Source of the DNA: Candidatus Hydrogenedentota bacterium
GTDB lineage: Bacteria; Hydrogenedentota; Hydrogenedentia; Hydrogenedentales; SLHB01
NCBI GenBank assembly: GCA_016215105.1
Contig: JACRLJ010000008.1
Coordinates: 1-40,774, forward strand
Reading direction: 5' to 3'
DNA length: 40,774 bases
Part shown: positions 278-38,070 of the stretch, one piece after another
Numbering within the stretch: position 1 is the first letter of the stretch
How the letters are laid out: every line of letters begins with the position of its first letter
The notes under the pieces: generated by a model
The model's database searches: none
The model's input: the letters and a program-made list of their open reading frames with translations, nothing else
Told to the model about the DNA's origin: nothing
Made by a program: the position numbers and the translations under genes

Positions 278-295
278 TTGGACAGGATCAGCAGG

Positions 296-15108: not shown

Positions 15109-15171
15109 TGGGCGCTTGGCGCTTGACACGGTTTGAATTTGGTATGAGCGGACGAATGGACGCCAATAGTG

Positions 15172-16062: not shown

Positions 16063-16133
16063 TGGCGCTCGAATCCACGGCCGCTTTACAACGCACTAAA
16101 CGCCCGGCGGGGGCGAACGGACAGAATCATTGA
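16059..16133 (+). CDS. 24-residue candidate coupling peptide between pilO and pilP
   Basis: ATGATG at 16059 overlaps the pilO stop in an ATGA junction and has GGAGG at 16048-16052, the best ribosome binding site nearby. The frame reads MMALESTAALQRTKRPAG and ends GANGQNH. Its TGA (16131-16133) overlaps the TTG start of the next gene (16130-16132) as TTGA. The peptide has no recognisable domain. The geometry suggests translational coupling: ribosomes load at GGAGG, finish the peptide and restart at the poor TTG of the PilP-like gene. An alternative is that the frame is the true N-terminus of the next protein, separated by a frameshift or sequencing indel. Confidence 0.4.
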   Translation: MMALESTAALQRTKRPAGANGQNH

Positions 16134-16648: not shown

Positions 16649-16653
16649 TGGCC

Positions 16654-16682
16654 TTGCGTCTCTTGCCGAAAACCGGTATAGT
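16654..16682 (+). promoter_or_regulatory. Possible internal promoter before the secretin gene
   Basis: TTGCGT (16654-16659), a 17-bp spacer and TATAGT (16677-16682) lie in the gap between the PilP-like and secretin genes. The -35 is poor and the -10 good. A start near 16689 would leave GGGAGG (16696-16701) as the ribosome binding site for the ATG at 16713. Confidence 0.35.
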
Positions 16683-16712
16683 GACCCTGAAACGCGGGAG
16701 GAAACTTAAGTA

Positions 16713-19700
16713 ATGATTACTCGGTCACCCCGATCGGTTCTAACGCGCTGGTTCGCCTTAGAATTGCCCGTCGTGTTGTGCGCTACGGGCGCTCTCTTGC
16801 TAGCCGCTGCGTCCCAGAAAACCGAAACAGCACCAGAGGCGCCTGCCGTCACGGCCGCGCCGACCCCATCCACGCCACCAGGCGCTCCGAAAGCCGCGGC
16901 TACGGAAAGCCAATCGAGCGAGTTCTTGTCACCCGCCCAGGAGTGTTTCCGAAAAGGGGTGGAACTCTACTCGAAGGACCTCTATCGCGAGGCGCTAAGC
17001 GAATTCACCAGGGCGTTGTCTTTGGATTCGACGATGCAGGACGCGATTGATTACCGCGACAAGTGCGTCGGTAAACTTAACCTATCGGCGGCGGGACAAG
17101 ATCCCACGAAAGCGCCCAAGTTCGAGAGCGTCGATCCGAACGCCCTCTCGTCAGGCGCCGAGGCTCCTCAGCAATCTGCCGAAGAACTCAAGAGGCAGCG
17201 CGTCCGTGAATTGCTCGATCTGGGCCAACAATACCTCGAGAACAAGAAGTACTCCCGCGCGGCCGAATTCTATGACCAAGTGCTGATGATCGCCCCGGAC
17301 AACCGGCGCGCCAAAGATGGGCTCCACGAATCGCTAATCGGTGAATACGGACAAGACACAGTCCGCTCCGAAAAGAAGACCGATGAAGACCGTGCCCGAA
17401 TCATGAAGGATATTGAACACCGGAAACAACTTCCCACCGGTGCGGATCCGACAGGTATCAAACCGTACAAGATGCAAGTCGAGGTCAGCGAAGAGGTAGG
17501 GCCGGAAGAGACCGAATCCTCCGACATGGACAAGATGCTCGATACCAAAGTGACGGTCGAGATGAAAGATGTCCATTTGAGCGAGGTCGTTGATTTCCTT
17601 TCGACTCAGTTTGATGTAAACATTGTAATCGACTCCCGTGTTGTGCAGGGCAAGCAGACCGAAGTGCCCATGACTCCGGGAGCGCCTATGGTTCCCGGCG
17701 GGGTGGGTGGCGCCTATCCGGGCGCTCCGGCGATACCGGGCGCGGCGCCTTTCGCTGCTGCGCCGGGCGTACCGCAGATTGGGGCGGGCCTTCAGGCGCG
17801 GCCACGCCTTGGTGGCGCCGGCCGCCGCGATGAGGATGCCGAATACAGTGGATTTGCGGGGGGAGGGGCCTATGGGGGCGCTTATGGCGCCGGCGGCGGA
17901 ATTGGCCAAGCGGCTGCTCCCGCGGTGATCGTCTCCGACGGCAAAGTCCCCTACATCAATCTCAAAGAGGTGACCCTGCGCCAAGCGCTGCGCGCGCTCT
18001 TGCGTCCAATGGGTCTGGACTTTACGCTTCAGCCGGGATTCATCTGGATTAGTACTCCACAGAATATTCGGCTCGAATCGTTCGAAGAACTTGAAACACG
18101 CTACTACGAGCTCAAGAACGCCGGAGCGGAAACACTGCCGAAGATCGTGGTCCAGAATTCCGGCGGCTCCCGGGGCGGCGGCGGCGGGCTTGGTGGCCAG
18201 GGCGGCGGCTACGGCGGCGGCGGGATTGGCGGCGGCGGCGGTTACGGCGGATCTGGCGGCGGTTTTAGCGGTGGCGGATCTGGCGGTGGCTTTAGCGGCG
18301 GCGGATCTGGCGGCGGCTTTAGCGGCGGCGGTTATGGCGGCGGCGGTGGCAGCCAGTTCTCCAACATCTCCCAATTGTTCAGTTCCGGCAACGACACATT
18401 ATACGGCGAGCCCCCCGCGGTCATAGGCCTTAGCACTGCTGAGACCGGCTTCGCCGGTGGTGGCGGCGGTGGCGCGTACGGTGGCGGACGGGCTAGACAG
18501 GGCGGCGGCGGCGGCGGCGGACTGCTTAGCGGCGGCGGCGCTCAAGGCGGCACCGGAGACGGCGCTGGCGGCGGGGGCAGCCAGTATGGCGGCAGCTTAT
18601 CCACGCAGGTAGGGATCATCAGCATCCTCCGGAACATCATACCTGACGTGATCGATCCTACGACCAGGGAAGTCCTGTCGTACATGGATTACAACCCCAT
18701 TCTGAACCAGCTGATCGTTCACAACACACCGACCAATTTGAAGAAACTCGAAAAACAGATCACGCACCTCGATGTGACGCCGAAAGAAGTCTGTATCGAG
18801 GCGAAGTTCGTTACCATTCAGTTGGGCGACCAGAAGAAACTCGGCTTTACGTGGAGTTCGTCGAATTCCGACCAGAACAACCGGGGCCGCCAGATTCCGA
18901 GCCTGTCGTCGTCGACCTACAACTACGACATCAACGGCGATGGCACGTCTGAGTCCATACCGTTCTACACGAAGCCGGATGGAACAAGCGTGATCAACAA
19001 TACGGTCACCCAGGGAATCCTGAACGCCTTGGCGAATCCCGGTCCGGCGGGAGCGTTTTCGCTCACCGGCATCATCACCGACAATGGTGACGGGGACAAT
19101 CTCAAGGTGGTGTTTGACTACCTCAACAGTATGACCGAAACCGAGTTGTTGAGCGCTCCCCGGGTTACAACGATGAATCGGAAGCCGGCGGTAATAGCGG
19201 ACTTCCAGACTCAGACGTTCCAGACGAGCGCAACGCAGCAGCTACAGACGACGGGCGGCTCCGGGTTCGGTGTCAATCCGACGACCAATGTGACTCAGAA
19301 TTTCGCCTTTGAGACATTTATCTTCGGCATTACGTTGTCCGTAACTCCGCAGATCAGCGGCGTAGACCAGGTGCGTCTGTGGTTGAATCCGCAGGTCACC
19401 ACGATGGTCGGCGTGGATGAATTTCAATTACCCGGCGCCATCGTGAACGGCGAGCAACAGCCGTCCACGACTATTCGTGTGCCGCGCACGTCGGTACAAT
19501 CGGTTTGGACGAACGTCATTGTGCATGACGGCGACACGCTGGTTCTGGGCGGGCTGATCACAGACCGGACGACCAAGGCTCAGGATAAACTGCCGTACTT
19601 GGCGGACATACCGGTCCTCGGGTTCTTCTTCCGCGGGAAGTCGAAAGACGTAAGTCAGTCCAGCCTGCTGATTTTCGTGACGACCGACATTATTGATCCC

Positions 19701-19745
19701 ACCGGCGCCCGGGCATTTGCGCCGGCGTCCGCCAGTCGATCATAG
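16713..19745 (+). CDS. pilQ: Secretin (PilQ/GspD family) with TPRs and glycine-rich inserts
   Basis: This is the outer-membrane pore of the pilus/secretion machine. A Sec signal peptide (to about residue 30) is followed by two TPR-like stretches (about 73-120 and 160-203). Next come an N-domain (VEMKDVHLSEVVDFLS, about 284-299), a second N-domain (INLKEVTLRQALRALLRP, about 414-431) and an N3-like domain (DYNPILNQLIVHNTP near 660). The secretin core spans about 806-996 (LLSAPRVTTMNRKPAVI; LVLGGLITDR; LPYLADIPVLGFFFRGKS; FVTTDIIDPTG). Two large Gly-rich inserts (about 483-553 and 580-630) separate the N-domains. At 1010 aa it is longer than typical PilQ or GspD (about 650-750 aa), because of the TPRs and inserts. 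The start is an ATG with GGGAGG upstream. It is the last gene of the operon and is followed by a strong terminator. Confidence 0.93.
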   Translation: MITRSPRSVLTRWFALELPVVLCATGALLLAAASQKTETAPEAPAVTAAPTPSTPPGAPKAAATESQSSEFLSPAQECFRKGVELYSKDLYREALSEFTRALSLDSTMQDAIDYRDKCVGKLNLSAAGQDPTKAPKFESVDPNALSSGAEAPQQSAEELKRQRVRELLDLGQQYLENKKYSRAAEFYDQVLMIAPDNRRAKDGLHESLIGEYGQDTVRSEKKTDEDRARIMKDIEHRKQLPTGADPTGIKPYKMQVEVSEEVGPEETESSDMDKMLDTKVTVEMKDVHLSEVVDFLSTQFDVNIVIDSRVVQGKQTEVPMTPGAPMVPGGVGGAYPGAPAIPGAAPFAAAPGVPQIGAGLQARPRLGGAGRRDEDAEYSGFAGGGAYGGAYGAGGGIGQAAAPAVIVSDGKVPYINLKEVTLRQALRALLRPMGLDFTLQPGFIWISTPQNIRLESFEELETRYYELKNAGAETLPKIVVQNSGGSRGGGGGLGGQGGGYGGGGIGGGGGYGGSGGGFSGGGSGGGFSGGGSGGGFSGGGYGGGGGSQFSNISQLFSSGNDTLYGEPPAVIGLSTAETGFAGGGGGGAYGGGRARQGGGGGGGLLSGGGAQGGTGDGAGGGGSQYGGSLSTQVGIISILRNIIPDVIDPTTREVLSYMDYNPILNQLIVHNTPTNLKKLEKQITHLDVTPKEVCIEAKFVTIQLGDQKKLGFTWSSSNSDQNNRGRQIPSLSSSTYNYDINGDGTSESIPFYTKPDGTSVINNTVTQGILNALANPGPAGAFSLTGIITDNGDGDNLKVVFDYLNSMTETELLSAPRVTTMNRKPAVIADFQTQTFQTSATQQLQTTGGSGFGVNPTTNVTQNFAFETFIFGITLSVTPQISGVDQVRLWLNPQVTTMVGVDEFQLPGAIVNGEQQPSTTIRVPRTSVQSVWTNVIVHDGDTLVLGGLITDRTTKAQDKLPYLADIPVLGFFFRGKSKDVSQSSLLIFVTTDIIDPTGARAFAPASASRS
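18249..18340. repeat. 27-bp in-frame tandem repeat in secretin
   Basis: GGATCTGG recurs at 18249, 18276 and 18303, giving a 27-bp unit that encodes a nine-residue motif (GSGGGFSGG). The copies differ mostly by synonymous GGC/GGT changes. Copy number may vary by slippage without breaking the frame. Confidence 0.8.
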
Positions 19746-20115: not shown

Positions 20116-21402
20116 GTGACGTACGCTTTATACAACGTGGCCGCTACAGTCGCGGCGCCACTCGGCGCCGCTTGGCTAGCGTTAAACGCGCGCCATAGGC
20201 CCCTGCTGTCACGCTTCGCTCCGTCGGCGCCCGTTCTCGAAAAGCGTCCGCTATGGGTCCATGCGTGTAGCGTCGGCGAGATCAACACGGCCCGGCCCAT
20301 ACTCACCGCGATTCGCGACGCCTGGCCTGGGCTTCCCATCGTCCTCACCGTATCAACGGTTACCGGACGCCGTCACGCGGATTCGGCAGCAGGTCCTTAC
20401 AGTGTCGCGTGGTGTCCCTTCGATCACCCGTGGGTGGTTCGGCGATTTGTGACGCGGCTCAGGCCGCGCGCGCTCCTGTTGACGGAAACGGAGATCTGGC
20501 CGAATATGCTGAGGGAGTGCCGCCGCTACGGGGCCCCGGTCGCGCTGGTCAATGGGCGTTTCAGCGATACACACTATCCGAGATACGCGCGTTGGCGGGA
20601 GTGGCTCCTGCCGGTTATTCAGCAGTTGTCCATGGCGTGCGTACAGAACGAGGAGTACGCTGACCGTCTTGCGTTTCTCGGCATGGACGCCAGCGCGATT
20701 CATGTCACTGGAAACACGAAGTTTGACGCCGCAGTCCGCACGTTCGATCCGGCGGATCTGGAACGCCTGCGCCGGCAAGCAGGCATAGACGCGGGCGACC
20801 CCGTGCTGATATTCGGAAGCGTTCGGACGGGCGATGAGGACCTCGTGGCTCGGTGCTGGCGCGAATTGCGCGAAGAGTTTCCAAGTTTGCACGTAATCAT
20901 TGCGCCGCGCCACATCGACCGCTTGCAGGACGTCCTGGGCCGGTTTCACGAGCCGGTTCTCTTGCGATCCGAAACGGTGTCAGGCAAGACTGCGGACCGC
21001 GAACGTGTGCTTGTCGTCGATACCATGGGCGAACTCGTTTCATTCTACGCAATCGCCACAGTGGCCGTCATTGGCGGGAGCTTCTATCCTGGGGTGAATG
21101 GCCACAATCCGCTCGAATCCGCCGCCTTGGGCATTCCAACCGTGTTCGGCGCGTATATGAGGAACTTCATCGACCCCGCGCGCGAACTGGTCACGTGCGG
21201 CGGAGCGCGACAAGTCGAGTCGCCCGACGCGCTGCCCGAAGTGTTGTCAGAACTGTTGCGCGAGCCATCCGTGCGTAAGGCCATTGCAGATCGCGGTCAG
21301 GAGGCGGTCGCGAAGAATCGCGGGTCCATTCGCCGAACACTTCGATGCGTCGCTCCGCTACTGGGGATGTGTCCTCCGGAGTCCGCGCCCAATAGCAGCT
21401 AG
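20116..21402 (+). CDS. waaA: 3-deoxy-D-manno-octulosonic acid (Kdo) transferase
   Basis: WaaA/KdtA transfers Kdo from CMP-Kdo to the lipid A precursor at the inner membrane, the first core step of LPS synthesis. At 428 aa it has normal length. Motifs visible in order are an N-terminal membrane anchor, VHACSVGEINTARPIL (residues about 47-62), LTETEIWPNMLREC, ALVNGRFSD, VTGNTKFDA, IIAPRHIDRL, VVDTMGELVSFYAIATVAVIGGS and the GT-B end motif GVNGHNPLESAALGIPTVFG. The start is GTG at 20116 with AGGAA eight bases upstream; an out-of-frame ATG at 20109 ends at once. The gene stands alone between two copies of a dispersed repeat. Its presence argues for a diderm cell with Kdo-containing lipid A. Confidence 0.95.
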   Translation: MTYALYNVAATVAAPLGAAWLALNARHRPLLSRFAPSAPVLEKRPLWVHACSVGEINTARPILTAIRDAWPGLPIVLTVSTVTGRRHADSAAGPYSVAWCPFDHPWVVRRFVTRLRPRALLLTETEIWPNMLRECRRYGAPVALVNGRFSDTHYPRYARWREWLLPVIQQLSMACVQNEEYADRLAFLGMDASAIHVTGNTKFDAAVRTFDPADLERLRRQAGIDAGDPVLIFGSVRTGDEDLVARCWRELREEFPSLHVIIAPRHIDRLQDVLGRFHEPVLLRSETVSGKTADRERVLVVDTMGELVSFYAIATVAVIGGSFYPGVNGHNPLESAALGIPTVFGAYMRNFIDPARELVTCGGARQVESPDALPEVLSELLREPSVRKAIADRGQEAVAKNRGSIRRTLRCVAPLLGMCPPESAPNSS

Positions 21403-22981: not shown

Positions 22982-23196
22982 CAATCTCTCCATTCGTGTG
23001 AAAAACAACGGGGAGTATCCTGCCGGAACGGATGGGGTTCGCGCAAGGTAACCGCGGCGCTTCGGACCGAATTGAAGGTCTCTGCGAGCGTACCGTAGAA
23101 TCAGCGGGAGTCAGGCGCGGCGCATTCCCGGCAGAAGCCCTGCGCTGGCGGCGCCAAGGCACAATTCCCCTAACGTTCAATGCGGAGTATGTCCCG

Positions 23197-24249
23197 GTGG
23201 TTGCAGGAGTCCTCATCGCGATTGCGGTTGCCGCGCTGCTTCTCATTCTCCAGCCGCGCTTCCTCGGTCCCGTGGACACCGCGCTGGAATGGGTTGACCG
23301 AATCCTGGACCGGATCACGACACGCAGCGCCAGGGATTTGCCGGCCGCCGCGCTGTTGCTGGCGCCTGCAATTGCGATCTTGGCGGCCTTCGGCATATTC
23401 CCCATTCTTTACGCGCTCTTCATGAGCGCCTACGACTTGGGCGGCCGCGGGGACTACATCGGGTTGGCCAACTATTCGGAGGCCTTGAAGAGTTCCGCGT
23501 TCTGGGACTGCTTCTTCGTCACCGTCTACTTTGCTTTCGGCAGCATACCCATCACGCTTGCCGTGAGCTTTCTAATCGCCAACCTGCTGTTCCGCATCGT
23601 GCGCGCGCGCGGTTTTTTTCGAACCGTCTATTTCCTGCCCTACGTGACGTCGGCTGTGGCCGCGGCGATGATCTGGCGTTTCATCCTGCGGCCCGATGAC
23701 GTCGGCCTCGCAAACATGCTGTTGCGCGCGGTAGGGATCGACGCAAAAGGCTGGTTGCTCGAGCCGCGCAGCGTGCTGTTCTTCCTCACCGGCAACACGC
23801 ACTTGAACGCCGTCGGCCCTAGCCTTGCCCTGTGCTGCGTAATTCTGTTCGAGATCTGGCATTCCAGCGGGTTCATGATCGTCATCTTTCTGGCGGGATT
23901 GACCAGCATCCCCAAAGAGCTCGAGGAGGCCGCCCGTATCGACGGCGCCGGCTGGTTTCAAGTAACGCGCACGATCACGATTCCGCTCTTGTCGCCCACC
24001 ATCTTCTTCTTGACCATCGTGAGCGTCGTCAAAGCGTTTCAGGCCTTCAATAGTTTTTACGCCCTCACCGGGAACGGTCTCGGCCCGCTCGACACGACGC
24101 AGAACACCACCGTGTACATTTTCACCAGTTTCTACGTGAACAACCGTCTGGGATATGGCGCGGCCGTGGCCACGCTCCTCTGCCTCGCCATTGTATCTCT
24201 CACCATCGCTCAATGGCGGCTGCTGGGGCGCAGGGTTCACTACGAATGA
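23197..24249 (+). CDS. Sugar ABC transporter permease, MalF/UgpA type
   Basis: A binding-protein-dependent transport permease of the CUT1 (carbohydrate) class. It has an N-terminal membrane helix and a further set from LPAAALLLAPAIAILAAFGIF onward. The cytoplasmic EAA loop (KELEEAARIDGAGWFQVTRT) contacts the ATPase. The open frame extends to an ATG at 23032. However, those first 55 residues look like translated spacer, and that start has no ribosome binding site. The GTG at 23197 has GGAG nine bases upstream and starts just before the first helix. The stop overlaps the next permease start as ATGA. No ATPase gene is nearby, so a shared MsiK/UgpC-like ATPase encoded elsewhere is likely. The substrate is not evident; amino sugars from the wall-salvage locus are a possibility only. 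Confidence 0.88.
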   Translation: MVAGVLIAIAVAALLLILQPRFLGPVDTALEWVDRILDRITTRSARDLPAAALLLAPAIAILAAFGIFPILYALFMSAYDLGGRGDYIGLANYSEALKSSAFWDCFFVTVYFAFGSIPITLAVSFLIANLLFRIVRARGFFRTVYFLPYVTSAVAAAMIWRFILRPDDVGLANMLLRAVGIDAKGWLLEPRSVLFFLTGNTHLNAVGPSLALCCVILFEIWHSSGFMIVIFLAGLTSIPKELEEAARIDGAGWFQVTRTITIPLLSPTIFFLTIVSVVKAFQAFNSFYALTGNGLGPLDTTQNTTVYIFTSFYVNNRLGYGAAVATLLCLAIVSLTIAQWRLLGRRVHYE

Positions 24250-25058
24250 TAAAGAAAGCGCTTCTATACGCGGTCCTTGCCTGCGGCGCCGCGATCACGA
24301 CCTTCCCGTTCCTGTGGATGGTGACGGCGGCCTTCAAGACGATTGGCGAGGCCTCCGCCGCTTCGTTTTCGCTGCTGCCGCGGCAGTGGCAATGGCACAA
24401 CTTTGTCGAGGCGTTTCAGGCGGCGCCATTCGGCCGCTACTTCTTCAATTCGTTTCTGGTGGCCTTTTCCGTCACCGCGTGCGTGATTCTGACTTCGCTC
24501 ATGGCGGGCTACGCATTCGCGCGGCTCGACTTTCCCGGACGGAAATCTCTATTCGCCGTCGTGCTCGCGACCATGATGGTGCCCTTCGAGGTAACGCTCA
24601 TCCCCAATTTCCGGCTGATTCATCTCTTGAATTGGTACAACACCTATCCGGCGCTCATTGTGCCCTGGTGCGCGAACGCATTCTCCATCTTCCTCATGCG
24701 CCAGGCGTTTATGGGACTGCCAGGAGACTATTTCGACGCGGCGAAGGTCGACGGTTGCGGCCACTTGCGGTTCCTGGTCTGGATCGCCGCCCCGTTAGTG
24801 AAACCGATCATCGTCACGGTCGGCCTTTTTGCGTTTCTCGGAAGTTATAACTCGCTGGTCTGGCCTCTCATCGTGACCGGCGAAGAGTCCATGCGCGTCG
24901 TACAGGTAGGACTGACCGTGTTTTCACTCGCGGAAGGGGTCCGTGTTCACTTGCTTATGTGCGCGTCAACCATTGTCATACTGCCTACCGTGGCGCTATA
25001 CTTTGCCGCGCAGAAATACTTTCTCGAAGGGTCAATCAGCGCGGGAATCAAGGGATAA
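24246..25058 (+). CDS. Sugar ABC transporter permease, MalG/UgpE type
   Basis: The partner CUT1 permease has 270 aa and about six membrane helices. Family motifs are visible: PFLWMVTAAFKT near residue 19, YFFNSFLVAF, LTSLMAGYAFARLDFPGR, MMVPFEVTLIPNF, and the EAA-type loop LPGDYFDAAKVDGCGHLRFL. It ends with the usual AAQKYFLEGSISAGIKG. The ATG at 24246 overlaps the stop of the MalF-type gene by 4 bp, which fixes the start. An in-frame upstream start at 24213 would lie inside the previous gene. The binding-protein gene follows after 5 bp. Confidence 0.9.
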   Translation: MIKKALLYAVLACGAAITTFPFLWMVTAAFKTIGEASAASFSLLPRQWQWHNFVEAFQAAPFGRYFFNSFLVAFSVTACVILTSLMAGYAFARLDFPGRKSLFAVVLATMMVPFEVTLIPNFRLIHLLNWYNTYPALIVPWCANAFSIFLMRQAFMGLPGDYFDAAKVDGCGHLRFLVWIAAPLVKPIIVTVGLFAFLGSYNSLVWPLIVTGEESMRVVQVGLTVFSLAEGVRVHLLMCASTIVILPTVALYFAAQKYFLEGSISAGIKG

Positions 25059-25063
25059 CCACA

Positions 25064-26325
25064 ATGAATCGCTTTATGGTTCGAGCCGGAGTCGCGGGTC
25101 TGCTGGTCGCCGCGTTTGGTTGCGGGTCTCCTCAGGCGCCCCAGTCCGGCTCCACACCGGTGCCAGATGGGACTGCCCGGCAGCCCGCGGCGGGCGCCGC
25201 AGTGAAGTTTGAACCCATTGACGCCTCGGCGGCGGTCTTTTGGGATCGCCAGACCAACGAAACCGCCAAGCTTATTGAAGAAATAATTGGCGACTTCAAC
25301 AAACCGCGAACCGGACTCCAAATCAAACGGCGTATGAGAGCATGACCGCGGAGTACGTCAATGCGGGCGCGGTCGCCACACTCGATGCGTTTATCGCCGA
25401 CCCCAAGACCGGCCTGACGCCCGAGGAATTGGACGATTTCTTCCCGGCGGTTCTCGAGACGAACCGGCTCAACGGCAAGATGTATTCGTTTCCCTTCTGC
25501 AAGAGCGTCTTGATGATGTATTTCAACAAGAAGGTCCTGTCCGAAGCCGGTCTAGCCCAGCCGCCAAAGACCTGGGACGAGTTCCTGACGCAGGCCCGGC
25601 AGATCAAGGCCAACACAGGCAAGCGCGCCTGGGCCGTATCGGTGGATACGTCGACCATAGACGGCATGATATTCAGCATGGGCGGCGATGTGATAAAGGA
25701 CAAGTCTACGCTGTTTGACTCTCCCGAATCGGTCAAGGTATTCGAGCTTTTCGAAACGCTGGCCAAAGAGGATTTGGCCATCCAGATTCCCCCGAATACC
25801 TACGACGACGAGACCGCGCTGTCGCAAGATCAGGTGGCGTTCATCTTCCGGTCGAGCTCCGGAAAGTCCAGCATCAGCCTGCTCATGGCGAATCGGCAAG
25901 ACCAGTGGGGCATGTCGAACATACCGCAGGCCGACCCGGCGCATCCGCACACCGTGCTCTACGGCCCGAACATCGTTGTTTTCAACACGACACCCGACCA
26001 ACAGGCGGCGGCGTGGGACTTCGCGAAGTTCTTCACCTCGCGCGAGCAGTCCACGCGTTGGGCGCTGGGGACGGGCTATATGCCTATACGGAAATCCTCG
26101 GCGCAGGATCCCAAGATTCAGGCCATGTGGGGCGAGTGGGAGTATAACCGCGCCGCGTACGATTGCCTGGCGTTCGCGAGGCCCGAGCCAAACGCGCCGG
26201 GCTGGCAGGAAGTGCGGAACCTTGTCGACAAGTCGCTGACGTCCGTGCTGACAGGACTCAAGACAGGAAAGGACGCCGCGGTGGAATTGAAAAAGGCCGC
26301 CGATGCGGCGCTGAACAAGAAGTAG
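25064..26325 (+). pseudogene. Sugar-binding lipoprotein gene broken by a frameshift/deletion
   Basis: The first part (25064-25345) encodes a lipoprotein leader (MNRFMVRAGVAGLLVAAFGC) and the start of an ABC substrate-binding protein (AKLIEEIIGDFNKPRTGLQIK), then runs into TGA at 25343-25345. The second part is in another frame and starts at ATG 25342. It encodes the rest (MTAEYVNAGAVATLDAFI, NGKMYSFPFCKSVLMMYFNK, TWDEFLTQARQI, WDFAKFFTSREQSTRWALGTGYMPIRKSS). In this family roughly 30 residues normally lie between the DFNK-TGL strand and the YESM-TAEY segment. YES is still readable just upstream of ATG 25342 in the second frame, so those residues are missing and the frame is shifted. The 4-bp ATGA overlap could allow restart, but the second part would have no signal peptide. 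An assembly or sequencing error cannot be excluded. Confidence 0.7.
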
Positions 26326-29853: not shown

Positions 29854-32061
29854 ATGGCGCAGAATGCGGTGGACTCCATGAGCATTGATTTTGATAACGC
29901 ATTGCGGGAGGCCGTGACCGAGGCCAAGTGCCCCGGGGCGGTGGCCTACATTGGTAATCGCGGCACGACGTATTACCACGGCGCGTACGGATTGCGGATG
30001 CGCACTCCGCAAGAGCGCCCCGCCGAAAGGGACACCATCTACGATCTCGCCTCCATCACAAAGATGATGGCGACCAATACGGCAGTGCAACTCTTGCGAG
30101 AAGATGGAAAGCTCGATCTCGATCGGCCGGTAGCGGACTACCTGCCTATCCCCGCGTTCAAAGGATTCACGCTGCGGCACGTCATCACGCACACCGCCGG
30201 ACTCCATCCAGGCCGGCCCTACTACAAAGAATGTTCCAGCGTGAATGAAATGCTTCAACGCTATGCGGAGACCGGTATCGAGCGCGCGCCCGGGCTCCGG
30301 CGCCGCTATTCCGATGTGGATTTCATGATACTCGGCAAAGTTGTCGAGATGGCCGCGCACGATTCTCTTGACGCTTTCTGCAAGAAGCGAATCTACGCGC
30401 CGCTGGGCATGGACCACACGGCGTTCAATCCGCCCAAGGAATGGGCGTCGAAATGCGCCGCCACGGAAAAATGCGCGTGGCGCAAGCGCGTCATCGTCGG
30501 TGAAGTACACGACGAAAACGCGTACGCCGTCGGCGGCGTGTCTGGTCACGCGGGGCTGTTCTCCACGGCGGAAGACATGGCGAAATACTGCCGCGCTTTG
30601 CTCGGTGGCAAACTTCTTTCCAAAAAGACGATCGCCGAGATGACGCAACTCGGTCAGGTGCCCTTCTATCCCTGGCAGGGGCTTGGCTGGGAGTTGGACC
30701 CATGGTCGAGCGGCGAGATGGGTTTTCTCTTTTCGCGCGGCGCCTTTGGCCATACCGGATGGACCGGCACGGCATTTTGGATGGACCGCGATACGGGCCT
30801 CTTCGCGATCCTTCTCGCAAATACCTGCCATCCCAGCCGCGACCATCGCGACACGGCGACACTTCGCCGCACGTTTTACAAGGCGGTGGTTCGCGAATTT
30901 TACCCCAAGGTGACGACGACACACACGGGTCTGGATCGTCTCGTGCGGGAGAGCTTCGAGCCGGTGCGCGGCAAGCGGCTGGCGTTGCTTACCAACGCGT
31001 CCGCGGTCGATCAACAGGGACGCCACATCCTCGAGGTGCTGAAATTCGAGAACGAGGCCACGCTGCACCTTCTTTACAGCCCGGAGCATGGCTTGAAAGG
31101 CCAGGCCGAAGCCGGCGCCAAAGTGAAGGAACAGAGCGCGTCCGTTCCGGTGATCAATCTCTACGGGGATCGCAAGCAGCCAACGGCGGCGGAACTGGCG
31201 CAAGTGGATCTTTTTGTCATTGATCTGCAAGACGTCGGCTCGCGCTACTACACGTATTTGGGAACCATGAAGGCCTGCCTGGAGGCCTGCGCCCAGTCAG
31301 GAACGCCGGTGCTTGTTCTCGATCGGCCCAATCCTGTCGGAGGCGCAACGCTCGAAGGGCCCGTCGCATCGCGCACGGACTCGCTGGTATGCGCGGCGCC
31401 CATTCCGGTACGGCATGGGATGACTTTCGGAGAAGCCGCGCTCTTTCTCGCAAAGCATGTGTTACATGAGAAGAAGTTGAACGTGACGGTCAGCGCCTTG
31501 GATAACTGGTTTCCGGAATTTCAGTTTGGCGCATGCTCGCTTCCCTGGACGCCGCCGTCACCCAACGTGCCTACGGCGGAAACGGCGCTGCTCTACGTGG
31601 GAATGTGTCTGTTTGAAGGAACCAACCTCAATGAAGGACGCGGCACCGAAACACCGTTCGGCCTGATTGGCGCGCCGTGGCTGAAGGCGGAAGCGGTCAT
31701 ACAGCGTCTTAGTTCGGACGAGCGCGAGGGCTGGGTTCTGGAGCCCGCCCGCTATACACCAAAATCGATTCCCGGCAAGTCCGAAAACCCGATGTATCGG
31801 GACCGCGAGTGCCACGGCATCCGGATCGCCGTACAGGACGCCGACGCGGCCCGCGCCATTACGCTTGCGCTTGCGCTGATTGTGGCCATTCGCGCATTGC
31901 ATCCCAAAGACTTCGAGTGGAAGAAGTCCTTCGATGTACTCGCCGGCTCTCCGGATTTGCGCGCGCGCATCGAACGGGGCGATACAGCGGCGGAAATTGT
32001 CGCCGGGTTCGAGGCGGACTTGGCCTCGTACCAGAAGATCCGTGTCACGCGTTATGCCTAG
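29854..32061 (+). CDS. namZ: Beta-lactamase-fold / NamZ exo-N-acetylmuramidase fusion
   Basis: Residues about 10-345 are a serine beta-lactamase/D-peptidase-like domain: S67-I-T-K70, Y152-S-D and H300-T-G correspond to the SxxK, YxN and KTG motifs. Residues about 353-735 are a DUF1343/NamZ domain: SPEHG (409-413), DVGSRYYTY (460-468), LDRPNPVGG (489-497), PPSPNVPT and EGTNLNEGRGTETPFGL. NamZ enzymes remove MurNAc from the non-reducing end of peptidoglycan glycans. The fused hydrolase could trim or sense stem peptides, so one protein could strip peptide and sugar; this is inference. No signal peptide is visible, so the site of action is unclear. The ATG at 29854 lacks a ribosome binding site. 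ATG 29878, with GGTGGA upstream, is an alternative. It lies about 1.3 kb upstream of the kinase/MurQ-SpoIID-AnmK operon. Confidence 0.9.
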   Translation: MAQNAVDSMSIDFDNALREAVTEAKCPGAVAYIGNRGTTYYHGAYGLRMRTPQERPAERDTIYDLASITKMMATNTAVQLLREDGKLDLDRPVADYLPIPAFKGFTLRHVITHTAGLHPGRPYYKECSSVNEMLQRYAETGIERAPGLRRRYSDVDFMILGKVVEMAAHDSLDAFCKKRIYAPLGMDHTAFNPPKEWASKCAATEKCAWRKRVIVGEVHDENAYAVGGVSGHAGLFSTAEDMAKYCRALLGGKLLSKKTIAEMTQLGQVPFYPWQGLGWELDPWSSGEMGFLFSRGAFGHTGWTGTAFWMDRDTGLFAILLANTCHPSRDHRDTATLRRTFYKAVVREFYPKVTTTHTGLDRLVRESFEPVRGKRLALLTNASAVDQQGRHILEVLKFENEATLHLLYSPEHGLKGQAEAGAKVKEQSASVPVINLYGDRKQPTAAELAQVDLFVIDLQDVGSRYYTYLGTMKACLEACAQSGTPVLVLDRPNPVGGATLEGPVASRTDSLVCAAPIPVRHGMTFGEAALFLAKHVLHEKKLNVTVSALDNWFPEFQFGACSLPWTPPSPNVPTAETALLYVGMCLFEGTNLNEGRGTETPFGLIGAPWLKAEAVIQRLSSDEREGWVLEPARYTPKSIPGKSENPMYRDRECHGIRIAVQDADAARAITLALALIVAIRALHPKDFEWKKSFDVLAGSPDLRARIERGDTAAEIVAGFEADLASYQKIRVTRYA

Positions 32062-32094
32062 CAACAAGTGACTGGCAGAGATCGAAATCGAGAA

Positions 32095-32292
32095 TTACCG
32101 AATCGGAGCTTCAGCTCGGTACAACACCGTATAGATCAGATCGCCGCCAGTCATTCCCTGGCTTTGATTGTGGGCAAGGGCGATCTTCACTCCTACCACG
32201 TCCACGTTATTGGCCTTGATCCAGTCGTTGGTTGCCTGATCAATCTGCGCGACCTTATCTTCGTAACCCTTGAACGTCTTGACAAAAACCAT
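32095..32292 (-). CDS. 65-aa conserved-looking small protein
   Basis: The ATG at 32292 is chosen because AGAGGAGCAGGAA precedes it; the longer open frame upstream is low-complexity. The protein reads MVFVKTFKGYEDKVAQIDQA, then a strand-rich part (VDVVGVKIALAHNQ) and a terminal GGDLIYTVLYRAE. The alpha-beta-beta pattern with a closing Y-x-V-LY strand recalls small Cse60-like proteins, but I cannot assign it. It follows the dprA-like gene after 62 bp on the same strand and converges with the NamZ fusion gene, 33 bp away. Confidence 0.7.
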   Translation of the reverse strand: MVFVKTFKGYEDKVAQIDQATNDWIKANNVDVVGVKIALAHNQSQGMTGGDLIYTVLYRAEAPIR

Positions 32293-32354
32293 TTCCTGCT
32301 CCTCTCTACTGCGGGCCGCCGTCCGTCTCGCTCGAGCGGCGCGGGCGCCTCGAT

Positions 32355-33296
32355 TCAAAACAAGCTTGCCTGCGACGCGGTGTCCATCGGCGGCTCCGCC
32401 CACAATTCCGCCAATCGCGTCGCGTCGAATTGACCATTGTCATCCAAGAGACTCCCAGCGCCTGCGCGGTGAAGCGCGTGAATGGGCGAATCCGCATCCC
32501 GGCTTCCATGTACCAGCACGCGCTTACCTTGATCCAGCGCGCACCGCGCGGTACGCACGCTTCCACCAGTCTTGCGCGGCTCAATGACACACACCAGCCG
32601 GGACAGGGCGCTGATGGTGGCGTTCCGCGTCACAGCGGCGTGGGTCTGCCAGCGGCAGTCCGGAGAAAACTCGCTCAAAATTGCCGCAGTCCCGAATTCC
32701 GCCGCGTCCATCAGCGTCGACGGACCCCGGTAAGTCAGTATACCCTGTGGCAACACCACTACGGTGCGGCCACCCGCTTCCAGCGCGGCGAAGTGCGCGG
32801 CGCTATCCACGCCCGGCGCGCCGCCGCTGACCACCGTCGCCCCGACGCCCGCGAACGCTTTGGCGCAATCCGCCGCGAGCAACTCGCCGCCCTCGGAAAC
32901 TTCCCTGGCCCCGACGACTGCGGCGCCTTCGGTATCGAGCAATTCGAGCGCCCCATACACGAAGAGAAGAGGCGGGGCCACTTCTCTCAAACTGTTCGGC
33001 AACGACGAAGGGTAGTCCGCATCCGTTATTCGCAGCGCCGATACGCCCGCCTGGCTCGTCGCCTCAAGTAGCCCCGCCGCCCGGCCCCAGCAGTGCTCGT
33101 CGCATTGGGCTACAACTCGCGCGAGGGACTCCTGGCCGGATGGAAGCGCTTCCGTCAATTCGTGCGGACTGCATTTCAGGATATCCGCAATGCCAACACC
33201 CATGCGCGCCGCGATGTCCATCAGCCTGCGAATAGTCACTACCCCGCCTCCGGGGGTCAGCATCAACGCGAGTATGGCCGTCGTATCCGAATTCAT
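32355..33296 (-). CDS. dprA: DprA/Smf-like DNA-processing protein
   Basis: DprA loads RecA on incoming single-stranded DNA during transformation. The 313-aa protein has a helical N-terminal part (LTPGGGVVTIRRLMDIAARM) and a DprA Rossmann domain. Motifs of that domain are visible: AAVVGAREVSEGG, TVVSGGAPGVDSAAHFAALE, GRTVVVLPQGI, AILSEFSPDCRWQTHAAVTRN, LSRLVCVIEPRKTGGSVRTA and ALDQGKRVLV. Several canonical residues differ (VGAREVS for the usual GSR-x-x-S; SGGAPG for SGLARG). The C-terminal winged helix seems absent, since the chain ends soon after the Rossmann fold. It is an atypical DprA-family member. It shares a 91-bp divergent intergenic region with the kinase/MurQ gene and may be transcribed with the 65-aa gene downstream. 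Confidence 0.82.
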   Translation of the reverse strand: MNSDTTAILALMLTPGGGVVTIRRLMDIAARMGVGIADILKCSPHELTEALPSGQESLARVVAQCDEHCWGRAAGLLEATSQAGVSALRITDADYPSSLPNSLREVAPPLLFVYGALELLDTEGAAVVGAREVSEGGELLAADCAKAFAGVGATVVSGGAPGVDSAAHFAALEAGGRTVVVLPQGILTYRGPSTLMDAAEFGTAAILSEFSPDCRWQTHAAVTRNATISALSRLVCVIEPRKTGGSVRTARCALDQGKRVLVHGSRDADSPIHALHRAGAGSLLDDNGQFDATRLAELWAEPPMDTASQASLF

Positions 33297-33387
33297 CTGC
33301 CGGTTTTTCCATATACTTTGCCCATGCTACCATGCGGTGACTTATTCGCGCTACTGATTACTCAACGCACATAGGTGGAACCGCGCA

Positions 33388-35223
33388 ATGGCTCTTTACC
33401 TCGCCCTTGAAGGCGGCGGCACGGCTACACGCGCCGCACTGTACGACGGCAACCGCGCTCTGCTTGCCGAAGCCGACGGCCCGGCATCCAATCCGGTGGA
33501 CGGTGGCGTTGCCGCCTGTGCGCAGATATTGGTGTCGCTGGGCCGCGAGTTGCTCGTGAACCGGGACGAGCCGCTCTCGACTGTCACTGCGGGCATTTCC
33601 GGCGCCGCCAACCCGATGTTTCGAGACGCTATTGCTCAACGTGTCAGCGACGCCCTCCGGGCGGAACGAACACTCGTCACCGATGACCTTCGTCCCCTGC
33701 TTATGGCGAACGCGCCCGCCGCGCCCGCAATACTTGCTATTGCAGGCACCGGCTCGAGCGTGCTGGCGAAATCGGAGACCGGCGAAACAATCATCATCGG
33801 CGGCCGCGGGCCCTTGTTTGGCGACGAGGGAAGTGCGTACCAGATCGCTGTGAGCGCGTTGCGCGCCGCTGCGCGATCCGTAGACGGAACGGGCCCTGCT
33901 ACGCGCCTGACCGATGCGCTCTCCGAAGCTCTAGGCGCCGCGTCGTTCGCCGAATTGGCCGTTCGGGCCAGGGCAGCGTCAAAACGTCAAATAGCGAACT
34001 TGGCGGTGGTCGTGTCCCGGCTGGCCGAAGCGGGCGACACGGTTGCCCGGGATTGCGTCGTGACCCAGGCCAATCGGCTTGCCGTGCAAGTGGCGGCTGC
34101 GCAAGCGCGATTGTCGTTGCCGGATGACACCGCAGTCTATCTCAATGGCGGGCTGTTCGAACACTGTCCGCTGTTTCGCTTGTCGTTCGCCGAGTCACTC
34201 GCGAAATCTGAAGCTGGTCTGCGTACTGCCTTTCCCGCGTTGCGCGGTCCCCGTGCCGTAGTCGAGCTCAGTTGGCTTCCGCTACCACTTCCCAACGTTT
34301 CGGTCGTGGATTACGGCGCCGCACGCGTGAATGCGTTGCCACCGACCGAGCAATCGGCATTGATGGAGTGTCCCCTGGACCGCTTATCGCCGCGTGAAAT
34401 CGTTGAACGCATGAACTCCGAGGACGCGCGGCTAGGGTTGGCAGTGGCTGCCGATGCGCACAACATCGCCACCGTCATTAGCCTCGCCGCCGAGGCGATT
34501 CGTTCCGGCGGGCGTATCATCTATGTCGGCGCGGGGACGAGCGGACGCCTTGGTGTTCTTGACGCTTCGGAATGCCCGCCGACGTTTGGCGTTGCCCCGA
34601 ATCAAGTAGTCGGAATCATTGCCGGAGGAGCCCGAGCGCTTCGTGAGAGCGTTGAAGGAGCCGAAGACGACACCGCCCAGGCCGCCGCCGATCTGGCCGC
34701 ACTCGCGCCCGAGGTCTCGTCCGCCGATGTGGTGATAGGCGTCGCCGCGTCCGGCGCAACACCCTACGTTCACGCGGCGCTGGAGACTGCACGCGCAGTT
34801 GGCGCGCACACGGCGTTGGTGTCCTGCAATCCCGTATCGTGCTCCGCCGCGGAATTCGTTATCGTGGCGGAAACGGGCCCGGAAGTATTGGCGGGTTCGA
34901 CGCGTCTCAAAGCTGGCACGGCCACCAAGATGATACTAAACATGATCTCGACCGGCGCCATGGCCTTGGCCGGTTATGTCTACGAAGGCCAAATGATTGG
35001 CATGCGGCCAATCAACGCCAAACTGCGCCGGCGCGCCGTCAGGATTATTGGCGGCTTGACCGGTGTGTCTGAACCGCGCGCGGCTGAGTTGTTGGACGCC
35101 ACAGGGGGGAGTATTCAGGAGGCGGTCATCATGGCGCGGCTGAGCCTGGACGCCGCGGCTGCGCGTGAGCGCATGCGATCCGCAGGAACGCTGCGCAGGG
35201 CGTTGGAAGGTACTGACGCGTGA
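33388..35223 (+). CDS. murQ: Amino-sugar kinase / MurNAc-6-P etherase (MurQ) fusion
   Basis: Residues 1-320 form a BadF/BadG/NagK-type sugar kinase (LEGGGTATRAALYD at 7-20, AIAGTGSSVLA near 116, GPLFGDEGSAYQIA near 142), like MurNAc/GlcNAc kinases. Residues about 328-611 are MurQ, an SIS-fold lyase that converts MurNAc-6-P to GlcNAc-6-P and D-lactate. Its motifs are VGAGTSGRLGVLDASECPP (from 380), SVEGAEDD, GVAASGATPYV, GPEVLAGSTRLKAGTATKMI and a closing UBA-like helical part. E395 and E426 match the spacing of the catalytic Glu83 and Glu114 of E. coli MurQ. The fusion would channel MurNAc through phosphorylation to etherase cleavage in the cytoplasm. AGGTGG precedes the ATG. The stop overlaps the next start as GTGA. 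Confidence 0.93.
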   Translation: MALYLALEGGGTATRAALYDGNRALLAEADGPASNPVDGGVAACAQILVSLGRELLVNRDEPLSTVTAGISGAANPMFRDAIAQRVSDALRAERTLVTDDLRPLLMANAPAAPAILAIAGTGSSVLAKSETGETIIIGGRGPLFGDEGSAYQIAVSALRAAARSVDGTGPATRLTDALSEALGAASFAELAVRARAASKRQIANLAVVVSRLAEAGDTVARDCVVTQANRLAVQVAAAQARLSLPDDTAVYLNGGLFEHCPLFRLSFAESLAKSEAGLRTAFPALRGPRAVVELSWLPLPLPNVSVVDYGAARVNALPPTEQSALMECPLDRLSPREIVERMNSEDARLGLAVAADAHNIATVISLAAEAIRSGGRIIYVGAGTSGRLGVLDASECPPTFGVAPNQVVGIIAGGARALRESVEGAEDDTAQAAADLAALAPEVSSADVVIGVAASGATPYVHAALETARAVGAHTALVSCNPVSCSAAEFVIVAETGPEVLAGSTRLKAGTATKMILNMISTGAMALAGYVYEGQMIGMRPINAKLRRRAVRIIGGLTGVSEPRAAELLDATGGSIQEAVIMARLSLDAAAARERMRSAGTLRRALEGTDA

Positions 35224-36911
35224 GTCTCCGCACCACGAACGATAGATATCGCAGCCGGCCCCCGTGGCGCGTAATTGTGCTTCTCGGCGCGCTTCTCACA
35301 ATCATGACAGGCGGATGTCTGTCGTGGTTCCAAGGCAAACCGTCGCGGCCGCTTCAAGTGAGGACCGCGCCTCGCGCGTCCACGCTGCCTACGGTTCAGC
35401 CAGCAACCCCATCGGAAGCTGTCACAGCCGTTGCCGAACAACCCATTCGCGTGCGTTTGATGCAGGGCCAATCACAGATTGGGATCACCGCCGCGCAACC
35501 TGCGACGGTGAAACACGGAGACGAGCAACTGACGTTGCGGCCAGGCGCTTGGAGTTTCCGGCCCGATAGCGTGGCGCCGGCGCGGCAACAGTTTCGCCTC
35601 TTTATAAAGACGTTCAAGCCCGGCGAGAACGACCAGGCGGCGGCGTTCGTGTCTCAGTGGAAAAGTCAGGGCTATCCTGCCGAGATTGTTCCCTTCGGCA
35701 GAAGATTTCGAACCGAATCGGGCAAGATCCTGGACAATCGACTTCTCTGGATTTCGGTGAATCGCTTCTCTACCTTAGCCGAAGCGGAATCCGCGAAGCA
35801 TACGCTGGAATCCCAGAAGGTGTGGGGATGGATACAGAACGAAGTCACCCAGCCGGGCAGTGGCGCCGTGGCTATCGTGAATGCCGCCGGGGCGGTCGCG
35901 CAGCGTCTCCGACTGCCCGTTGTGGTTCAGTCTCCGGCGGCCATTTCAATCGACAACGTTGAACACGGTTACGGTTCATCCCAACGAGATACGCGATCCT
36001 ACTTGGGCTTGCTCGAAATCAGTGCCGGTCCCGATGGCCTGCTGTCCCTTACCGAGATCGTGCCGCTCGAAGACTACATTGCCGGCGTGCTGCCCTCGGA
36101 GATGCCGGCCGGGTGGCCCGTTGAAGCGCTCAAGGCGCAAGCCATCGCGGCGCGTAGCGACACCGTCGCGAATCTGTCGCTCAAGCACACGCTCGAAGGC
36201 TACGATTTTTGCGCGACGGAGCACTGCAAAGCGTACGCGGGCACGGGCGCCCGCAAGCCCATGACAGACCAAGCGGTAGCCGCGACCAAGGGGGAGATTC
36301 TCACCGACGGCCAGCGCGTAGCGCCTACGGTCTTCTGCGCGAATTGCGGCGGCTGGACCGAAAACAATGAAACGGTCTGGTCGTCACCGCCAGATCCGAT
36401 CTTGCGCGGGGTGAGCGATCTCGAGCCGGGGCCGCGGTCCGCGGCGTCTGGGCCGGCGAACATCGCGAGATGGCTAGACCCGCCGCCCAAAGCGTATTGC
36501 AGCGGCGATGACAAGACATTTCGCTGGTCAAAGCGCCTCACGACGGGCGAGATTACGGCCCTCGTGAACAAGAAATACGCCGTGGGGACGGTCCGAAACA
36601 TCGAGCTTGGCGAACGGGGCGCCAGTGGCCGGCTAAAATGGGTACGAGTCGTGGGTTCCGCCAAGACCGAGACCATCCAAAAGGAACTGCCTATCCGACT
36701 TGCATTTGGGGGGCTTCCCAGTGCTATGTTTATGGTAGACCGAAAAGCAGGTACCGATGGCGCGCCGGTGTTTACGTTTACCGGCGGTGGCCGAGGTCAC
36801 GGCGTAGGGTTGTGCCAGCAAGGCGCTCGCGGAAGAGCGCTCGAGGGGCAGCGCTACGCGGATATTCTGAGGCGCTACTTTACTGGGGTCACGACCGAAA
36901 GGGTGCGTTAA
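35220..36911 (+). CDS. SpoIID-like lytic transglycosylase lipoprotein with SPOR-like domain
   Basis: The GTG start overlaps the previous stop (GTGA). The leader VIVLLGALLTIMTGGC ends in a lipobox, so the protein is probably an envelope lipoprotein. Residues about 125-205 resemble a SPOR domain (RLFIKTFKPGENDQAAAFVS, then KHTLESQKVWGWI), a module that binds peptide-free glycan strands. Residues about 250-560 are SpoIID/LytB: VPLEDYIAGVLPSEMPAGWP with the presumed catalytic E294, EALKAQAIAARS, TKGEILTDG, and GGGRGHGVGLCQQGARG. SpoIID cleaves denuded glycan by a lytic transglycosylase reaction and leaves 1,6-anhydro-MurNAc ends. Its downstream neighbour AnmK uses exactly that sugar, which strongly supports the role. 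Confidence 0.9.
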   Translation: MSLRTTNDRYRSRPPWRVIVLLGALLTIMTGGCLSWFQGKPSRPLQVRTAPRASTLPTVQPATPSEAVTAVAEQPIRVRLMQGQSQIGITAAQPATVKHGDEQLTLRPGAWSFRPDSVAPARQQFRLFIKTFKPGENDQAAAFVSQWKSQGYPAEIVPFGRRFRTESGKILDNRLLWISVNRFSTLAEAESAKHTLESQKVWGWIQNEVTQPGSGAVAIVNAAGAVAQRLRLPVVVQSPAAISIDNVEHGYGSSQRDTRSYLGLLEISAGPDGLLSLTEIVPLEDYIAGVLPSEMPAGWPVEALKAQAIAARSDTVANLSLKHTLEGYDFCATEHCKAYAGTGARKPMTDQAVAATKGEILTDGQRVAPTVFCANCGGWTENNETVWSSPPDPILRGVSDLEPGPRSAASGPANIARWLDPPPKAYCSGDDKTFRWSKRLTTGEITALVNKKYAVGTVRNIELGERGASGRLKWVRVVGSAKTETIQKELPIRLAFGGLPSAMFMVDRKAGTDGAPVFTFTGGGRGHGVGLCQQGARGRALEGQRYADILRRYFTGVTTERVR

Positions 36912-36912
36912 C

Positions 36913-38070
36913 ATGAATCTCGACGCCATCCGTAGAAAAACGACTCGGTTCGCCATCGGTCTCATGTCAGGCTCCTCGTGTGATGGCGTGGACGCCGCTC
37001 TCGTTCGTATCAAAGGAACCGGCAAGGGCTTACACATGAAGCTCATCCGATTCGAGACCTTTCCCTATTCCGCGAACTTCCAGGCAAGGCTTCTCGCCCC
37101 GAAGATGGATGCGCAAGAAGTCTGCACGCTGAATTTCGAACTCGGAGAACGATTCGCCGAGGCGTCCCAAGAGATGCTGAAAGTGGCCACCGAGGAACTG
37201 TGCGAAGTGGACTTCATCGCGTCACACGGGCACACCGTCGCGCATGTGCCACCCCGCGGAAACGATAAGATGGGCACGCTGCAGATCGGCGAACCGGCGA
37301 TTATTGCGGAACGCACGGGTCTGCCCGTGGTATCGGATTTTAGGCCTCGCGACATGGCCGCAGGCGGCCAGGGCGCTCCGCTCGTGCCCTATGCGGATTG
37401 GGTCCTTTTTGCGCGGGACGACCGGACTGTGGCGTGTCTGAATATCGGTGGTATCGCCAATATCACGGTGGTTACGCCGAGTTTCGACGAGATTCTTGCC
37501 TTTGACACGGGTCCCGGCAATATGGCGATTGATGGCGCGATGCGGCTGCTTACGCGGGGCGCTCAACAGATGGATAAGGACGGCAGCGCCGCCGCGCGAG
37601 GCGATGTCATCGACGAGTTTCTCGAGTTCTTGTTGGACCACCCCTATTTTGGACGCGTTCCTCCGAAGAGCACGGGCCGCGAGGAATTCGGCGCCGAAGT
37701 CTATCTCCGTGACGCGCTCGCCGCGCGCAAGGACCATACTCTTGACGATCATATCGCCACGGTGACCACCGCTGTGGCGTACAGCATCATCCGCGCGTTC
37801 AATCGCTTTGTGCAGCCCCAGTACGACGTGAGCCGTCTGATAGTGAGTGGCGGCGGGGCCATGAATCAGACGCTGATGCGTTACCTCAAGCAGGGTTTGC
37901 CGAACATCAAGGTGCGCAGCAGCGACGAGTACGGAATTCCGCATCATGCGCGCGAGGCGATCGCGTTTGCCATTCTTGGAAATGAGACCATTTGCGGCAC
38001 ACCCGCCAATGTGCCAAAGGCCACTGGAGCTCGCCACCCGGTAATCCTCGGGAAGATTACCCCGAACTGA
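36913..38070 (+). CDS. anmK: Anhydro-N-acetylmuramic acid kinase
   Basis: AnmK opens the 1,6-anhydro ring of anhydro-MurNAc with water and phosphorylates it to MurNAc-6-P, the MurQ substrate. The 385-aa protein has normal family length. Visible motifs are GLMSGSSCDGVDAALV (16-31), SHGHTVAH, LQIGEPAIIAERTGLPVVSD, FRPRDMAAGGQGAPLVP, LNIGGIANIT, AFDTGPGNMAIDG (D198 fits the catalytic Asp), and the C-terminal sugar/ATP motif VSGGGAMNQTLM. The ATG lies one base after the SpoIID stop, so the genes are translationally linked. The 205-bp gap that follows has no clear terminator. Confidence 0.97.
   Translation: MNLDAIRRKTTRFAIGLMSGSSCDGVDAALVRIKGTGKGLHMKLIRFETFPYSANFQARLLAPKMDAQEVCTLNFELGERFAEASQEMLKVATEELCEVDFIASHGHTVAHVPPRGNDKMGTLQIGEPAIIAERTGLPVVSDFRPRDMAAGGQGAPLVPYADWVLFARDDRTVACLNIGGIANITVVTPSFDEILAFDTGPGNMAIDGAMRLLTRGAQQMDKDGSAAARGDVIDEFLEFLLDHPYFGRVPPKSTGREEFGAEVYLRDALAARKDHTLDDHIATVTTAVAYSIIRAFNRFVQPQYDVSRLIVSGGGAMNQTLMRYLKQGLPNIKVRSSDEYGIPHHAREAIAFAILGNETICGTPANVPKATGARHPVILGKITPN

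Follow-up and report, generated by a model that had tools for sequence, protein, structure and literature searches.

Recycling of cell-wall sugars in Escherichia coli uses AmpG and SLT/Mlt enzymes that are scattered over the genome. In Bacillus the enzyme NamZ is secreted, and AmiE has the S12 fold. The corresponding B. subtilis genes form a cluster, murQ-murR-murP-amiE-nagZ-ybbC(namZ), with AmiE and NagZ described as extracellular (PMC5061867). The route through AnmK and MurQ has been described (PMC5371407), as has the biochemistry of the kinase MurK (PMC10465942). SpoIID has a published activity as a lytic transglycosylase on peptidoglycan and as a muramidase on denuded strands; it occurs widely in bacteria that do not form spores, diderms among them, and is active in Waddlia (PMC6635528). 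Here we describe a locus that brings enzymes of these kinds together. It lies in a stretch of 40,774 nucleotides (nt), hereafter the window, which is a whole contig (label G000:C37) of the 6.7-Mb genome of a Candidatus Hydrogenedentota bacterium. At positions 33388–38070 the window encodes a sugar kinase fused to MurQ, a SpoIID-type protein and AnmK in tight succession, and we consider it likely that these genes are a peptidoglycan turnover-and-salvage operon of the Hydrogenedentota.

Each of these enzymes, the AnmK–MurQ route and the occurrence of SpoIID in non-sporulating diderms were already known. An earlier note on the window had called the pairing of a SpoIID-type enzyme with AnmK in a diderm unusual; the diderm setting had been reported before (PMC6635528), and only the pairing with AnmK appears to be unreported. 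No link of SpoIID with AnmK or MurQ was found in the literature searched (most subscription journals lay outside the search), and a search for a kinase–MurQ fusion gave nothing useful. What is new is the presence of turnover and salvage enzymes in one coupled operon that includes a kinase–MurQ fusion, together with the recurrence of the SpoIID–AnmK pair in two phyla.

Conserved coupling of spoIID and anmK

The operon contains the following features.

33388–34317, plus strand: BadF/BadG-type sugar kinase (MurK/NagK-like; PF01869), the N-terminal half of the fusion
34324–35223, plus strand: MurQ, N-acetylmuramic acid (MurNAc) 6-phosphate etherase (TIGR00274), the C-terminal half of the fusion
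35220–36911, plus strand: SpoIID-type lytic enzyme of 563 residues, predicted to be secreted or a lipoprotein; its GTG start lies inside the murQ stop (GTGA)
35583–35852, plus strand: SPOR-like domain, SpoIID residues 122–211 (predicted fold, match to the CwlC SPOR structure 1x60)
36913–38070, plus strand: AnmK, anhydro-MurNAc kinase, 385 residues, starting 1 nt past the spoIID stop

The GTGA overlap (35220–35223) and the 1-nt gap (36912) that join the three genes are exactly as the earlier note had claimed. That note had also proposed a search of genomes for SpoIID genes directly upstream of anmK, and the search bears the proposal out. Across 68 Hydrogenedentota genomes, AnmK is found in 67, NamZ in 61, MurQ (matches above 90 bits) in 49 and SpoIID in 36. 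In 31 of the 36 genomes that have SpoIID (25 genera), its gene immediately precedes anmK and is read in the same direction, with the domains 626–681 nt apart; the junction between the two genes falls within −4 to +2 nt in 25 of the 31 measured. The remaining five genomes (genus g40 and G048, the latter interrupted by contig ends) have SpoIID directly downstream of murQ, and a further case, in G010, lies at a contig edge. Recurrence of the junction over so many genomes and genera puts the arrangement far from chance and supports a conserved operon in which murQ precedes the SpoIID and AnmK genes. In loci that lack SpoIID, anmK often still follows murQ.

The linkage was surveyed in two phyla, Hydrogenedentota and Armatimonadota. 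Among 251 Armatimonadota genomes, 57 have both SpoIID and AnmK, and in six of these SpoIID is immediately upstream of anmK. The order is murQ-spoIID-anmK in G068, and murQ-spoIID with anmK on another contig in G069. G076 has the spoIID-anmK pair without murQ, as do G097, G110, G156 and G182, where it is part of a longer series of genes. Neighbouring genes in these loci were named from their N-terminal sequences alone. The SpoIID tree has three separate groups, one of G068, G069 and G076, one of the other four Armatimonadota and one of the Hydrogenedentota. By the approximately unbiased (AU) test, with groups that were named after the tree had been seen, a single origin of all AnmK-paired SpoIIDs is rejected (P=0.003), and so is a clade uniting the Hydrogenedentota SpoIIDs with those of G068, G069 and G076 (P=0.010). 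Because one clade of paired SpoIIDs is rejected, the pairing probably arose at least twice, and repeated origin argues for a functional link. Two SpoIIDs from Myxococcota (L174 and L175) share the extra N-terminal half and form the sister group of the Hydrogenedentota SpoIIDs in the tree; they are not beside anmK.

Septal remodelling is the main role so far proposed in print for the SpoIID domains that are common outside spore-forming bacteria. A conserved, translation-coupled spoIID–anmK pair in two phyla points instead to turnover and salvage, and leads us to predict that the product of SpoIID is the substrate of AnmK. The SpoIID of this operon might nevertheless act in division or remodelling, the role suggested for it in Chlamydiales and cyanobacteria; it would then only be encoded alongside the recycling genes, and AnmK would be fed mainly by SLT-type lytic transglycosylases. 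Waddlia SpoIID is septal, with a proposed role in division (PMC6635528), and a SPOR-like domain is typical of septal proteins that bind denuded glycan. SLT enzymes are near-universal in the phylum, with three in the source genome, and the neighbouring gene dprA (see below) demonstrates that unrelated genes can be stable neighbours. However, SpoIID almost never occurs outside the operon in the phylum (the only extra copy, in G044:C918, is weak), the spoIID–anmK distances are those of translation coupling, and in Armatimonadota the pair is seen again, among different genes and with no murQ. We consider the division enzyme an unlikely explanation.

Enzymes of the operon and their predicted substrates

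All four open reading frames named in the earlier note (beta-lactamase/NamZ, kinase/MurQ, SpoIID and AnmK) were confirmed in their coordinates and family assignments. The SpoIID protein matches PF08486 (88 bits) and, over its cut-off, the SpoIID_LytB family TIGR02669 (178 bits); by sequence it also matches the structures 4rwr, 5i1t and 5txu. Its predicted model (mean predicted local distance difference test score, pLDDT, 83.6) is aligned by Foldseek with 5i1t (E 4e-18, template-modelling (TM) score 0.79 of target) and 4rwr (TM 0.71 of target). Residue E294 aligns with the (S/G)EM glutamate of both 4rwr and 5i1t and is invariant among 22 orthologues; we take its column to be that of the catalytic glutamate E88 of B. 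subtilis.

For the SPOR domain that the earlier note had seen in this protein, the predicted fold speaks in favour and the Pfam search does not. SPOR (PF05036) was not detected in the protein by Pfam, even at E≤10, and for this reason we used evidence from the fold. In the predicted model, residues 122–211 form a β-α-β-β-α-β domain that Foldseek matches to CwlC SPOR (probability 1.00, E 0.019, TM 0.75 of target), and PF05036 is matched weakly in seven of the 22 orthologues (best E 0.0084). The predicted structure thus agrees with a SpoIID fold plus a SPOR-like domain. Glycan that lacks stem peptides is the ligand of SPOR domains (as cited in PMC6635528). The earlier note had also described the protein as a lipoprotein: the N-terminal LIMTGGC is compatible with a lipobox, but the lipoprotein cysteine is not conserved, and many orthologues have an N-terminus that resembles an ordinary signal peptide.

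AnmK matches PF03702 (336 bits) and the equivalog PRK09585.3-2 (450 bits, over the cut-off of 387). Its nearest solved structure is the yeast levoglucosan kinase 4zxz (248 bits), ahead of the AnmK structure 3cqy (212 bits) and then 8bre/3qbw. On that ranking the protein could be a kinase of the levoglucosan type that acts on a different 1,6-anhydro sugar, in which case the operon would not concern anhydro-MurNAc. We regard this as highly improbable, given that the equivalog cut-off is exceeded, that the gene is co-operonic with SpoIID and with MurQ, whose substrate is MurNAc-6-phosphate (MurNAc-6-P), and that the operon AnmK is vertically inherited across the phylum. The AnmK tree shows this inheritance to be largely vertical within Hydrogenedentota, the copies in part of family f1 being fast-evolving. 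A second AnmK, a paralogue that stands alone, is encoded by several members of the window's family. Two score classes had suggested that in this family one AnmK type replaces another beside SpoIID; we rejected this, as the tree consists of one vertical operon lineage and stand-alone paralogues.

Both fusions claimed for the window, beta-lactamase/NamZ and kinase/MurQ, are real and phylum-wide. The kinase–MurQ fusion is present in nearly all complete Hydrogenedentota loci, G042 being the exception with MurQ alone. The MurQ half matches TIGR00274 (312.1 bits, over the cut-off of 302) and the structures 4s12/4lzj (1e-70 to 1e-65); it keeps the DASEC and VEGAED motifs, and E395, E423 and E426 are invariant among the 22 orthologues. 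The kinase half matches the BadF/BadG kinase family PF01869 (70.5 bits), and its catalytic Asp column, D100, is likewise invariant. Among solved structures it matches hexokinase 2e2n (2.8e-18), the MurNAc/N-acetylglucosamine (GlcNAc) kinase 8zo3 (5.5e-17) and human NAGK (6e-11).

These matches also admit a kinase half that is a GlcNAc kinase, in which case the fusion would hold two independent activities, both yielding GlcNAc-6-phosphate (GlcNAc-6-P), rather than successive steps on MurNAc. The few relatives with solved structures include human NAGK and a probable bacterial NagK, the NCBIfam family NagK_SO3507 matches at 78 bits, and NagZ-like enzymes would release GlcNAc. Yet that score is far below the family's cut-off of 370, 8zo3 outscores NAGK, and the MurNAc-specific kinase of Tannerella is genetically linked to murQ (PMC10465942, PMC5790795). 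A GlcNAc kinase is in our judgement doubtful, if still to be reckoned with.

The NamZ fusion and other features of the window

Two further features lie upstream of the operon.

29854–32061, plus strand: fusion of a beta-lactamase fold (S12; AmiE/YfeW-like) with NamZ exo-beta-N-acetylmuramidase, 735 residues (PF00144, PF07075, PF20732)
32355–33296, minus strand: dprA, DNA-processing protein, 313 residues (PF02481, 146 bits), outside the pathway

The earlier note had counted NamZ as part of one locus with the operon and had left out what fills the 1.3 kb between them. That stretch is occupied by dprA on the minus strand, and any transcript common to the NamZ fusion and the operon would therefore have to cross dprA. 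Because at least 12 related Hydrogenedentota loci also have a divergent dprA ahead of this operon, we take the operon to start at the kinase-murQ gene. We see no apparent functional reason for the conservation of this neighbour. The NamZ fusion is on the operon's contig in only two of 60 genomes (G000 and G050). This linkage and the intervening dprA rule out NamZ as an operon member, and the real unit is kinase-MurQ/SpoIID/AnmK, with NamZ as a chance neighbour in the window.

The domains of the fusion are Beta-lactamase PF00144 (235 bits), NamZ_N (208 bits) and NamZ_C (140 bits). Its best NCBIfam match is PBP4B/YfeW PRK03642 (157 bits, below the cut-off of 385), the NamZ half matches the structures 4jja/4k05, and the protein has an SxxK motif starting at residue 66 as well as PEHG at 410. 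NamZ is nearly always fused to a beta-lactamase fold in Hydrogenedentota. No export signal is present on the fusion: the frame is closed by a stop two codons upstream of the ATG, and the catalytic domain follows the start directly; most of the 19 relatives inspected leave no room for one, and only G046 has a signal resembling that of twin-arginine translocation (Tat). Release of MurNAc outside the cell, as in Bacillus, is not borne out here or in nearly all these relatives. Since it lacks an export signal, the fusion is probably cytoplasmic, a separate and unlinked accessory of the same pathway, and such an enzyme would need import of MurNAc-bearing fragments.

Elsewhere in the window, genes for an ATP-binding cassette (ABC) importer (two permease open reading frames and one solute-binding protein) occupy 23032–26325 on the plus strand, 3.5 kb upstream of the NamZ fusion. 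The solute-binding frame lacks the first ~50 profile positions and is preceded, with an ATGA overlap, by a frame of 128 residues, so a frameshift or a wrong start is possible. A 3-deoxy-D-manno-octulosonic acid (KDO) transferase gene at 20116–21402 fits a diderm envelope. Further upstream, 12877–19745 (plus strand) encodes a PilM-like protein and a secretin with TPR repeats, of the type IV pilus/type II secretion type, and a frame of 2,322 residues at 278–7246 has no Pfam match.

A proposed salvage pathway and its known counterparts

From these data we infer the enzymatic activities, the SpoIID product, the kinase substrate and the import step, as follows. Secreted SpoIID, with its SPOR-like glycan-binding domain, would cut glycan strands, probably peptide-denuded ones, in the periplasm, leaving 1,6-anhydro-MurNAc ends or, through a muramidase side reaction, MurNAc ends. 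The fragments would be imported by a route other than AmpG and trimmed by a NagZ-like enzyme and an amidase. AnmK would convert anhydro-MurNAc into MurNAc-6-P, the fused kinase half would phosphorylate free MurNAc (or GlcNAc), and the MurQ half would turn MurNAc-6-P into GlcNAc-6-P for NagA. Both kinase routes would meet at MurQ, and the three SLT-type proteins may also feed AnmK. The two types of SpoIID product would then be matched by two kinases, AnmK and the fused kinase.

Several observations weigh against this pathway. About half of the phylum lacks a detected SpoIID, and these genomes mostly keep AnmK and MurQ. Conserved adjacency alone is no proof of a shared pathway, because dprA is a conserved neighbour too and has no wall function. 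The AnmK of the operon is closer in sequence to levoglucosan kinase than to the solved bacterial AnmKs. In the source genome, the NagA-like match (185.6 bits, G000:C15) and the NagZ-like GH3 match (179.9 bits, G000:C83) fall below their cut-offs of 225.65 and 207, and the three SLT-type genes could make anhydro ends without SpoIID. AmpG (TIGR00901) is unmatched in the source genome and nowhere over cut-off in the 68, although a divergent importer may be present; the whole phylum yields a single near-full-length match, below threshold. The anhydro-MurNAc route drawn in the earlier note would thus call for an importer other than a recognisable AmpG, and SLT-type enzymes are a second possible source of its substrate. 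SpoIID as the sole lytic transglycosylase was ruled out by SLT domains in 66 of the 68 genomes.

A broader reading is that at least two recruitments, in Hydrogenedentota and in Armatimonadota, made SpoIIDs into dedicated enzymes of wall turnover that are co-translated with AnmK, and that in Hydrogenedentota salvage is independent of AmpG, with two SpoIID products matched by two kinases that feed one fused MurQ. We offer this tentatively, as a possibility that falls somewhat short of an even chance. AmpG is essentially undetected in Hydrogenedentota, whereas AnmK is near-universal. The phylum appears to salvage wall sugar through fused enzymes and without AmpG, and another importer is to be looked for.

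How does the locus compare with known systems? The Hydrogenedentota protein shares with the SpoIIDs of Waddlia and Bacillus (PMC6635528) the fold, the conserved catalytic Glu column and secretion; it differs in having a SPOR-like domain in front and in being encoded with AnmK and MurQ. The B. subtilis cluster resembles the Hydrogenedentota system in combining MurQ, an AmiE-type S12 hydrolase and NamZ in one genome, and its AmiE-type and NamZ domains correspond to the two halves of the Hydrogenedentota fusion (PMC5061867). In B. subtilis, however, AmiE and NamZ are separate secreted proteins encoded beside murQ with a phosphotransferase system (PTS), whereas in Hydrogenedentota they are fused, apparently unexported and, with few exceptions among the genomes, unlinked to murQ. 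No AnmK match was obtained in the B. subtilis control genome.

The likeness to recycling in E. coli (AnmK-MurQ-NagA) lies in the passage through AnmK and then MurQ to GlcNAc-6-P, with NagA-like and NagZ-like genes present here. By contrast, Hydrogenedentota have SpoIID in the operon and MurQ fused to a sugar kinase, and AmpG was not found in them. The murT-murK-murQ operon of Tannerella forsythia likewise has a unit of sugar kinase and MurQ that takes MurNAc to GlcNAc-6-P (PMC10465942, PMC5790795). There the genes are separate, MurT is the transporter and AnmK is not predicted (PMC7670621), whereas Hydrogenedentota encode the kinase and MurQ as a single polypeptide and have AnmK and SpoIID in addition.

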